A stretch of DNA of 34,894 bases from Candidatus Portnoybacteria bacterium RBG_13_40_8 (lineage in GTDB: Bacteria > Patescibacteriota > Minisyncoccia > RBG-13-40-8-A): NCBI GenBank assembly GCA_001819435.1, contig MHMT01000020.1, positions 1-34,894 on the forward strand, given 5' to 3'. Both the position numbers and the translations under genes were made by a program. Of this stretch, positions 12,408 to 30,132 are shown piece by piece (position 1 is the stretch's first letter; each line of letters begins with the position of its first letter). The notes below the pieces were generated by a model. That model had not been told where the DNA came from. It ran no database searches and saw only the letters and a program-made list of their open reading frames with translations.

Positions 12408-12450
12408 ACAGTTTTATCTTATCATAAAAAAATCTCTTCAACAAATTCAC

Positions 12451-12560
12451 CCCCACACCAATCTCGGCAACAGACCTGATTATATTTTGATTCGAAGGCG
12501 AGGCCGACATTCGTCTCCGAGCACGATATGACAAATTCCGTTATGAAGATTGGTGTGGGG
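12451..12560. repeat. Inverted-repeat element upstream of rpsA
   Basis: A perfect 14-bp inverted repeat, CCCCACACCAATCT at 12451-12464 and AGATTGGTGTGGGG at 12547-12560, encloses 82 bases with some internal pairing (CGAAGGCGAGG region) and no gene. It has the same CCCCACACC arm as the elements at 13724-13808 and 23326-23353. It fills the divergent space between the MBL-fold gene and rpsA. Confidence 0.8.
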
Positions 12561-12569
12561 ACGAGTCTC

Positions 12570-12598
12570 TTGCCAAAAATTTTAATATCATTTATACT
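12570..12598 (+). promoter_or_regulatory. Sigma-70-type promoter of rpsA
   Basis: TTGCCA (12570-12575), a 17-base spacer and TATACT (12593-12598); each hexamer matches consensus at 5 of 6 positions. The expected transcription start is about four bases before ATG 12609, so the mRNA would be nearly leaderless. This also argues against the ORF-track start at 12528, which lies upstream of the promoter. Confidence 0.75.
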
Positions 12599-12608
12599 TT
12601 TAAATACT

Positions 12609-13712
12609 ATGCCTACAAAGTTGATAAACGACAAAAAAATAGGCCTAATGGCAACCCTTATCTCCAGGGTCGATTTTGTTATTCCTAAGCCCGGAGATGT
12701 CATCGAGGCAACGGTTGTAGCCATAAAGCCGTTAATGATTTTTCTTGATTTAAAGAATTTTAAAACAGGGATTATCTTGGGCAGCGAGATAAAACAAAAC
12801 CCTCAGCAATTTAAAAATATAAAGCTCAACGATACTTTAACTGTAAAAATTGTTGATTTGGAAAATGAAGACGGCTACACCGAGGTTTCTATGCTTGAGG
12901 CCGGAGAAGAAAAAAAATGGCAATTCCTAAAAGAAAAAATGGATAATAGTGAAATTATTGAAGCCAAAGTCTTAAAAGCAAATAAAGGTGGCTTGATGAT
13001 GGAAATGGAAAACGCCGAAGCTTTTATGCCGGTTTCTCAACTTTCCTCTTCTCATTATCCTCGCGTAGAAGGGGCCAATAAACAAAAAATTCTTTCTGAA
13101 TTAAATAAATTGGTTAATCAGATTTTAAAAATTAAGATAATTGACCTTGATGCGAGAGAGAAAAAAATCATTGTTTCTGAGAAATCGGCCGAAGAAAAAA
13201 AATTGAAAAAAGCCCTTGAAAAATACGTTGTCGGAGACATTGTTGAAGGAATCATTACCGGAGTGGTTGATTTTGGTGCTTTTGTAAAATTTGATGAATT
13301 AGAGGGCCTAATTCATATCTCGGAAATTGACTGGCAAATTATTGATAATCCGGCTGATTTTTTCAAGGTTGGCGAAAAAATCAAGGCCAAAATAGTAGAA
13401 ATAGAGGGCGATAAAGTTTCTCTCTCAACCCGAGCCTTAAAAGAAAATCCCTGGGAAAAAGTCAGAGATGATTATAAAACTGGTCAAATCGTTCGAGGAA
13501 GCGTGAGTAAATTTAACCCTTTTGGCGCTTTTATAAAATTAGATGAACATGTTCAGGGGTTGGCCCACATCTCCGAATTCGGTACAGAAAAGAAAATGAA
13601 GGAAAAATTAGAACTTGACAAAACCTATAATTTCAAAATCATCTCAATAAAACCATCGGAATATCGAATGGCTTTAAAGCCGATTTTTGAAGAAGAAATA
13701 GAAGAAAAATAA
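12609..13712 (+). CDS. rpsA: 30S ribosomal protein S1 (four S1 domains)
   Basis: S1 binds mRNA and helps deliver it to the 30S subunit. Four S1/OB domains are visible. They begin around KPGDVIEATVV, NSEIIEAKVLKANKGGLMM, VGDIVEGIITGVVDFGAFVKF and TGQIVRGSVSKFNPFGAFIKL, with the classic GLIHISEI and GLAHISEF in the last two. Four domains instead of the six of E. coli is usual for CPR and Gram-positive types. The ORF-track start (12528) precedes the promoter, so ATG 12609 (MPTKLINDKKIG) or ATG 12648 (MATLISRVDF) is the likely start. The first is chosen because it is the first ATG after the predicted transcription start. An inverted-repeat element lies on each side of the gene. Confidence 0.92.
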   Translation: MPTKLINDKKIGLMATLISRVDFVIPKPGDVIEATVVAIKPLMIFLDLKNFKTGIILGSEIKQNPQQFKNIKLNDTLTVKIVDLENEDGYTEVSMLEAGEEKKWQFLKEKMDNSEIIEAKVLKANKGGLMMEMENAEAFMPVSQLSSSHYPRVEGANKQKILSELNKLVNQILKIKIIDLDAREKKIIVSEKSAEEKKLKKALEKYVVGDIVEGIITGVVDFGAFVKFDELEGLIHISEIDWQIIDNPADFFKVGEKIKAKIVEIEGDKVSLSTRALKENPWEKVRDDYKTGQIVRGSVSKFNPFGAFIKLDEHVQGLAHISEFGTEKKMKEKLELDKTYNFKIISIKPSEYRMALKPIFEEEIEEK

Positions 13713-13723
13713 AGGAATTTTAA

Positions 13724-13808
13724 CCCCACACCGATTTTGCCGTATATTATCATTGCGAGGCGCGCAGCGCCTCGCTTTTAAATTACCTCGCAAAATTCGG
13801 TGTTGGGG
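13724..13808. repeat. Inverted-repeat element with internal GC hairpin, after rpsA
   Basis: Arms CCCCACACCGATTTTGC (13724-13740) and GCAAAATTCGGTGTTGGGG (13790-13808) are inverted repeats with small bulges. Between them lies the perfect hairpin GCGAGGCGC-GCA-GCGCCTCGC. The total of about 85 bp without coding capacity looks like a miniature inverted-repeat element. Its right edge abuts the -35 box of the next gene. Confidence 0.8.
13755..13779 (+). terminator. Likely rpsA terminator (inside the repeat element)
   Basis: A 9-bp perfect GC stem with a 3-nt loop is followed by TTTTAAATT. It is the only terminator-like hairpin between rpsA and the next promoter. Confidence 0.7.
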
Positions 13809-13837
13809 TTGACAGATTTTTGTTTTGGGTGTATAAT
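13809..13837 (+). promoter_or_regulatory. Perfect-consensus sigma-70 promoter
   Basis: TTGACA (13809-13814), a 17-base spacer and TATAAT (13832-13837): an exact consensus match, rare in any bacterium. It drives the unknown GC-rich gene at 13896. The leader is about 50 nt and ends in a GAGGAGG ribosome binding site. Confidence 0.92.
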
Positions 13838-17081: not shown

Positions 17082-17750
17082 ATGAATATTCCGATTATTT
17101 ATGAAGATGATGATATAGTTGTAATCGATAAACCCGCGGGAATCCTGGTTCATCCAGTAACAAACGAAAAAAACACTTTACTGGATTTTTTAAAAATCAA
17201 ATATCCCAAAGTACAACTAGTCCATCGTTTAGATAAAGATACTTCCGGATTAATGGTTGCGGCGAAAAATGAAAAAGCATACGACCAGCTAAAGGGCCAA
17301 TTTTTAAACCGGGAAATCAAAAAAAAATACATTGCATTGGTTTATGGAATCTTAAAGGATAAAAAAGGAATAATCGCTAAATCAATATCTAGGTCCAGAA
17401 AAAGAGGCGGAAGTCAGACAACTACGCCAATTGGTAAAAAACGGGAAGCGATTACCAGATATGAGGTGGTTGAAGAATTTAAAAATTATTCACTTCTAGA
17501 AGTATTCCCCGAAACCGGACGTACCCACCAAATCAGGGTTCATTTGGCTTCAATTGGCCATCCGATTGCTGGCGATAAAAAGTATAAATTCAAAAGACAA
17601 CCAAAATTAGAGAGTTTGACAAGACAATTTCTTCATGCTAATTATTTAAAAATCACCCTGCCCAAGAATGGAACGAAAGAATTCGTTTCTAATCTACCGA
17701 ATGACCTAAATAAAATCTTAGAAAAATTACGCCCAGTGCTACAACTTTGA
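17082..17750 (+). CDS. RluA-family 23S rRNA pseudouridine synthase
   Basis: This enzyme converts specific uridines in rRNA or tRNA to pseudouridine. The 222-aa protein contains the catalytic motif VHRLDKDTSGLMVAAKN (Asp in HRLDxxTSG), the family start YEDDDIVVIDKPAGILVHP, and FPETGRTHQIRVHLASIGHPIAGDKKY. No N-terminal S4 RNA-binding domain is present, so this is the short RluA/RluD-like catalytic form. The gene begins four bases after the CCA of tRNA-Val, so processing of a shared transcript is likely. The last codons (PVLQL and the TGA stop) lie inside the 134-bp inverted-repeat element, which therefore supplies the present C-terminus. Target position cannot be told. Confidence 0.92.
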   Translation: MNIPIIYEDDDIVVIDKPAGILVHPVTNEKNTLLDFLKIKYPKVQLVHRLDKDTSGLMVAAKNEKAYDQLKGQFLNREIKKKYIALVYGILKDKKGIIAKSISRSRKRGGSQTTTPIGKKREAITRYEVVEEFKNYSLLEVFPETGRTHQIRVHLASIGHPIAGDKKYKFKRQPKLESLTRQFLHANYLKITLPKNGTKEFVSNLPNDLNKILEKLRPVLQL

Positions 17751-17865
17751 TGCCACAAAGCGGCACAGATGTAGTATCGTGGCACAATAGATAAACAAAC
17801 ATTTTTTGATGTATAATCTATAACTTTGATGATTTCAGTATAAAAATCGAAGTTGTAGCACCGGG
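17732..17865 (+). repeat. 134-bp MITE-like element, copy A, directly before rplS
   Basis: Terminal inverted repeats of 20 bp (17732-17751 and 17846-17865, 18 of 20 matching) enclose a TATAAT box (17812-17817). A second copy, equally 134 bp and differing at about 11 positions, lies in reverse at 29999-30132 before efp. Flanks TACG (17728-17731) and TATG (17866-17869) may be a target duplication with one change; the right copy includes the rplS start codon. Inside, CTATAACTTTGAT (17818-17830) can pair with ATCGAAGTTGTAG (17846-17858), giving a leader hairpin just before the ATG. Confidence 0.9.
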
Positions 17866-23282: not shown

Positions 23283-23325
23283 TCAATATAAAACATATCC
23301 TACCACATTTTTTAAAAAATTTAAA

Positions 23326-23353: not shown

Positions 23354-23377
23354 TAAAGACCTGTAATATATTATTTC

Positions 23378-29998: not shown

Positions 29999-30132
29999 CC
30001 CAGTGCTACAACTTCGATTTTTATACTGAGTTCATCAAAGTTGTAGATTATACATCAAAAAACGTTTGTTTATCTATTATGCCACGATACTACATCTGTG
30101 TCGCAAAGTGGCATCAAAGTTGTAGCACCGGG
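29999..30132 (-). repeat. 134-bp MITE-like element, copy B, directly before efp
   Basis: A reverse-orientation copy of 17732-17865 with equal length and no gaps, differing at about 11 of 134 positions. The 20-bp terminal repeats are at 29999-30018 and 30113-30132. The flanks are a perfect 4-bp direct repeat CATA (29995-29998 and 30133-30136), which on the efp strand is TATG and contains the efp start codon. The TATAAT box is at 30047-30052 (minus). CTACAACTTTGAT and ATCGAAGTTGTAG form the leader hairpin before the ATG. Confidence 0.92.

Follow-up and report, generated by a model that had tools for sequence, protein, structure and literature searches.

The rpsA-like gene of Candidatus Portnoybacteria bacterium RBG_13_40_8 stands between two inverted repeats with CCCCACACC arms, and a compact version lies about 10 kb downstream, raising the question of what these elements are and how they reached their present positions. 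The window analysed here is a 34,894-nt stretch of contig MHMT01000020.1, in which CCCCACACC was located at 12451 (+), 12552 (-), 13724 (+), and 23327 (+). Dinucleotide shuffles of the window contained 0.06 copies of this 9-mer on average and never more than 1, compared with the 4 observed. The whole genome (690 kb in 33 contigs) had 9 copies, versus 2 of the reversed control, and a search with a covariance model of the compact form gave 18 strand hits, corresponding to approximately 10 places. A DNA-uptake sequence was rejected, as 9 copies in 690 kb are far too few.

Inverted-repeat elements at rpsA and at a ferredoxin-like gene

The features of the two regions are as follows.

12451-12560, no strand: element 1, 110 bp from arm to arm (111 bp, 12450..12560, with the fifth C)
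12570..12598, + strand: rpsA promoter-like site TTGCCA-17-TATACT, immediately 3′ of element 1 and kept in relatives without element 1
12609..13712, + strand: rpsA-like gene with S1 domains
13724-13808, no strand: element 2, 85 bp, arms CCCCACACCGATTTTGC / GCAAAATTCGGTGTTGGGG around the rpsA terminator
13755..13775, + strand: rpsA intrinsic terminator, GCGAGGCGCGCAGCGCCTCGC followed by TTTT, a GC hairpin within element 2, conserved in G003
13809..13837, + strand: consensus promoter TTGACA-17-TATAAT (12/12 matches), abutting the right arm of element 2
23322..23325, no strand: left target-site duplication of element 3, TAAA
23326-23353, no strand: element 3, compact copy CCCCCACACCAAAATTTGGTGTTGGGGG, 28 bp
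23354..23357, no strand: right target-site duplication of element 3, TAAA
23378..23593, - strand: ferredoxin-like gene (name inferred), stop codon 24 nt from element 3

A sequence-only reading of the window had described these three elements as one family, and their places and sizes, the 14-bp arms, and the inner GC hairpin were all confirmed. The arms of element 1 are a perfect 14-bp pair, CCCCACACCAATCT/AGATTGGTGTGGGG (CCCCCACACCAATCT/AGATTGGTGTGGGG with the fifth C), and the element ends 9 bp before the -35 box of rpsA (TTGCCA, 12570). The right arm GGTGTTGGGG, carrying one additional T, was found across the whole genome in elements 2 and 3 only, in agreement with the bulged T that had been noted as common to two of the three. 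Folding z-scores were -5.8, -7.7, and -2.6 for elements 1, 2, and 3, respectively. No T-run follows the stem of element 1, while TTTAAATTTTTT follows that of element 3 and TTTT the inner hairpin of element 2. Rfam models detected only tRNAs in the window, and a search of IMG/VR viral contigs gave no match.

Element 1 was missing 5′ of rpsA in 6/6 relatives examined, all of which retained the rpsA promoter. Because it is missing in these relatives while the promoter is kept, element 1 is a lineage-specific insertion located before the promoter by chance, and the promoter-boundary role first assigned to it is not supported. No target-site duplication was seen at element 1 (flanks TTCA and CGAG), which is possibly an old copy or one changed since it inserted.

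Element 2 differs from a clean insertion in that it surrounds the conserved rpsA terminator and in that no target-site duplication was seen at its ends. The terminator hairpin was found in G003 without the arms of element 2, G002 has a paired stem of different sequence at this place, and the right GGGG of the element lies directly against a -35 box that is kept in both G002 and G005 (GGGGTTGACAG is also present in G005, and GGGTTGACAG in G002). The arms nevertheless fit the family, bulge included, and the chances that element 2 is a true family copy are about even. The terminator role proposed for it is thus only partly borne out, by the inner hairpin. The promoter at 13809-13837, which directly adjoins element 2, drives the next gene past rpsA.

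The site of element 3 is also occupied in G002 (L015) and G005 (L016), where the stem is kept and the loop has diverged. This pattern suggests that the ferredoxin-like gene may have come to use element 3, with its TTTAAATTTTTT tail, as a terminator. A terminator role may apply to this copy, but compact insertions make up the majority of the copies examined, and many lie within genes, where regulatory elements of gene ends would not be expected.

Distribution, target sites and reading frame of the palindrome

The same hairpin, usually 29 bp long, was found in many Patescibacteria and in other phyla. Within the class, a strict pattern matched 6 of 384 genomes and its control none; in the genome collection, it matched 42 loci in several phyla, where approximately 1 was expected by our own estimate. 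The Patescibacteria hosts included Nealson-, Falkow-, Woese-, Giovannoni-, and Uhrbacteria, and other host bins, by name, were Omnitrophota, Ratteibacteria, Margulisbacteria, Elusimicrobia, Nitrospirae, Deltaproteobacteria, and Clostridia. A lack of over-representation of the arms elsewhere would have spoken against the sequence-only reading; it was not seen, as arm matches reached 136 in G413 (control, 2) and 29 in G401 (control, 0). Binning errors may explain some of the single host cases, but not G413 or G401. In G413 (L104-L143), a longer arm pair, CCCCACACCTTG..CAAGGTGTGGGG, encloses a 29-bp element, forming a composite of approximately 103 bp with at least 8 dispersed copies.

Across 53 compact copies, the strongest direct repeat was exactly 4 bp long, immediately outside C(CCCC..GGGG)G. 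Identity of the 4-bp flanks was 0.65, compared with 0.43 for shuffled partners (z 6.8), and fell to chance level one base further. The duplicated target is commonly YNNR, e.g., TTTA, TAAA, TCAA, and CTTA. The typical 29-bp element with its duplication adds 33 bp; elements of one other genome are 35 bp (39 bp with the duplication), and those of G399 are 74 bp (78 bp). Element plus duplication is in each case a multiple of three, and the reading frame is therefore preserved.

Insertions inside genes followed this arithmetic. For every one of the 27 copies located in Pfam-backed genes, the added length was a multiple of 3, versus 46 of 103 copies without a spanning ORF (p 1.7e-8), and Pfam domains span the inserts. 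In this genome, compact hairpins were found inside two recG paralogs, each at its own site, and inside ksgA, tatD, and a formamidopyrimidine-DNA glycosylase gene; further host genes were uvrA, pgk, gatB, pyrG, and PBP2. The domains within or beside which inserts lie were PGK, GatB, CTP synthase, PheT, GlyS beta, MutL, HisD, UvrA, UvrC, PilB, TatD, KsgA, PBP2, PrmC, PEP mutase, and P-type ATPases. The 33-bp addition reads as 11 aa, e.g., PPHQKFGGGGL, and in-frame inserts are seen in RecG (EGEI-NPHTNNLVVGV-DILIGTHALIQ) and KsgA (VQFYAS-SPHQKFGSGDG-PKIISYVAKDSFY). Empty sites were available for comparison, each recG paralog of this genome being the uninserted site of the other; G001-G005 lack both recG inserts, and G006 shares the insert in the wedge domain. 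Most simply read, this placement reflects selection against frameshifts, the inserts presumably being translated and forming surface loops. Because the genic copies keep the frame and have no stops, translational bypassing of the kind seen in mitochondrial byps need not be invoked.

Taken with the shared arms, which support a single family, these results make it almost certain that the hairpin family is mobile. MITEs have terminal inverted repeats and a target-site duplication and no coding capacity. Terminal inverted repeats are present in the family, the 4-bp duplication is present in the window at element 3 (none seen at elements 1 and 2), and the ends are common with a candidate autonomous element described below, the GIY-YIG units, which have the same arms and duplication. 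The window elements are best explained as non-autonomous members of a miniature transposon family, element 2 less certainly so.

GIY-YIG units as candidate parent elements

The candidate parent elements are units of approximately 285–315 bp, in which two arms, CCCCCACACC plus a variable A/T-rich extension, surround one single-domain GIY-YIG gene of approximately 85 aa. The longest arm-flanked unit met (L149/L198, in G399) is 303 bp long, has the duplication TTCA, and contains one 85-aa ORF, which belongs to the GIY-YIG nuclease family (PF01541, E 8.7e-14) and has PDB 1zg2 (UPF0213, E 2e-7) as its closest solved structure. Pfam and NCBIfam searches of this unit gave no transposase model, the GIY-YIG gene being the sole ORF.

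GIY-YIG genes, recognised with an HMM, were collected from eight genomes and from a class-wide similarity search, and inverted repeats hugging each gene were scored. Scores of at least 30 were obtained at 28 of 47 genes, versus none of the 282 control windows taken at these loci. Since loci L214-L243 were picked by similarity to an arm-flanked GIY-YIG protein, such percentages are not population estimates; in the less biased eight-genome set, arms were present at about 10 of 29 GIY-YIG genes. Among the units with a CCCC(C)ACACC arm, 17 showed the 4-bp duplication in the same register (identity 0.76 versus 0.45, z 6.0). The arms went with one subtype, being found at 32 of 38 genes with a C-terminal QLKxRI tail and at 0 of 12 with GxGR (Fisher 1.5e-7, for a split made post hoc). 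GIY-YIG genes of other subtypes (L187, L195, L199, L205, and L259) have other inverted repeats, CCTTCGACAGGCTCAGG, CTGTCATTGCGAG, ATCCTTCGCC, and ACCCCGTTAGAG, hinting at further arm families. Relatives of one such GIY-YIG protein were detected in 276 of 384 sampled genomes of the class.

Contig 31 of G013 carries two GIY-YIG units approximately 10 kb apart that are 94.5% identical over 309 bp, which is exactly the unit, with no similarity outside and with the duplications CACA/CACA and CTTA/CTTA. In G399, the 74-bp non-autonomous copies and the resident GIY-YIG unit have a common inner arm, ACACCA(A/T)AACG; this inner-arm match is weaker in G397 and G388.

We consider it probable that a transposon with a GIY-YIG nuclease gene as its sole gene gave rise to the window elements, which would be its non-autonomous copies, and, judging from gene content and arm association, this nuclease is the likely mobiliser. 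It would recognise the arms, most likely in extruded form (hairpin or cruciform), and make a 4-bp staggered cut in the target, fill-in of which would yield the 4-bp duplication. Direct joining of two arms would give the 29-bp palindrome, which with 4 bp makes 33 bp and could sit in frame, and such palindromes would be moved in trans by the nuclease. We know of no GIY-YIG enzyme that moves DNA in such a manner. With somewhat less assurance, though still on the favourable side, we propose a class of transposons that rely on one enzyme, a single-domain GIY-YIG nuclease of approximately 85 aa, with autonomous elements of approximately 290–310 bp, widespread in Patescibacteria, in several arm families, and with palindromes entering essential genes in frame across phyla.

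Alternatively, an as yet unseen conventional transposase could move the palindromes as typical miniature inverted-repeat elements, the GIY-YIG gene being passenger cargo between the arms. Clear inverted arms and target-site duplications would be expected of such elements too, and this genome has copies but no matching unit: both of its GIY-YIG genes belong to the other subtype and have no such arms, the nearest matching unit being in G006, of the same order (L235). Against this stand the GIY-YIG gene as the only gene in the examined units across several arm families, the tie of the arms to one GIY-YIG subtype, and the lack of any kb-scale arm pair with a transposase among the arm lists inspected, which together make a conventional transposase unlikely. 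Two IS-like kb-scale arm pairs in the Elusimicrobia genome G401 were rejected, as they enclose ordinary genes between degenerate compact copies.

Arms around RNA genes, related systems and a second repeat family

Regulatory palindromes of core genes, serving as terminators or promoter boundaries and spread by descent, would account for the rpsA terminator held by element 2 and for the position of element 3, 24 nt past a stop codon with a T-rich tail and kept in three genera. They would not account for the many copies in frame within conserved protein domains, for copies with target-site duplications, or for copies missing at orthologous sites. As a general explanation this reading is contradicted and very improbable; later use of single copies is possible.

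Native 5S rRNA genes lie between the arms in two genomes, G388 and G398; a tRNA gene of G388 is enclosed as well, and none of these cases shows duplications. The arm-enclosed 5S rRNA gene of G398 is directly 3′ of the 23S gene, and that of L161 was recognised by sequence. Single CCCCACACC arms accompany the enclosed RNA genes at L100 1180-1348 (G398), L161 1041-1211 (G388), and L159 4-178 (G388). Arms acting as RNA-processing stems around structured RNAs would suit these cases, the rpsA terminator, and the strong folding of element 1, but the 29-bp copies enclose nothing, excision from mRNA would cut the message, and target-site duplications would be unexpected, leaving this the least probable of the explanations considered. 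Element 2 and the arm-enclosed 5S and tRNA genes may be instances of a single phenomenon in which arms surround native structured RNA, and which simple transposition leaves unexplained.

Compared with MITEs, which they resemble in their terminal inverted repeats and target-site duplication, the palindromes differ in being as small as 27–29 bp, essentially two joined arms, and in having no classical insertion sequence parent. Unlike classical insertion sequences with a DDE, HUH, or serine transposase, the 303-bp unit has no recognised transposase gene, and IS200/IS605 hairpins are argued against by the 4-bp duplication. UPF0213 and other single-domain GIY-YIG proteins (PDB 1zg2; PF01541) are of the same family, one subtype of which lies here in arm-flanked units; to our knowledge, they are not known as transposition enzymes.

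Rickettsia palindromic elements (RPE) are palindromic mobile repeats of about 150 bp found in frame in unrelated genes (PMC10969869). In-frame insertion into protein genes is shared with the present family, which is set apart from the RPE description by its mostly 29–74-bp elements, defined 4-bp duplication, and candidate autonomous partner. REPINs are short inverted repeats with variable spacers that are extragenic and linked to a resident enzyme gene, the single-copy RAYT, a tyrosine (HUH) enzyme (PMC3116915). Here, in contrast, the GIY-YIG gene is inside the mobile unit, target-site duplications and intragenic copies occur, and no tyrosine (HUH) transposase is linked. Insertions with GIY-YIG genes in CPR rRNA genes are described as matching neither intron type and apparently outside spread by homing (PMC11270868). 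The passages concerned mention neither inverted arms nor palindromes, unlike the units here, with which the insertions, so far as described there, are consistent. Among open-access papers, none was found to describe GIY-YIG units that combine inverted arms with 4-bp duplications; unseen preprints could alter this novelty.

If one GIY-YIG subtype is a transposition enzyme, both the abundant GIY-YIG genes of Patescibacteria and many short palindromes would be accounted for. Ultra-small genomes would then have a mobile system fitting 300 bp, and an autonomous mobile element of approximately 290–310 bp would rank with the smallest known. In-frame insertions of the kind seen in recG, uvrA, pgk, gatB, pyrG, and PBP2 illustrate how enzymes could gain new loops. 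Such a minimal one-gene mobile system is directly testable in the laboratory.

A separate repeat family was also observed in the window. This element, 126–130 bp long with perfect 12-bp terminal inverted repeats GTGCTACAACTT/AAGTTGTAGCAC, occurs at 17736-17861 (+) and 30003-30128 (-), directly 5′ of the ATG start codons of rplS and efp. Genome-wide, 16 arm matches (control, 0) correspond to 8 copies, and further copies among these precede ftsZ-, pilB-, and hrcA-like genes, named from translation. It looks like a dispersed, species-specific promoter/leader unit.
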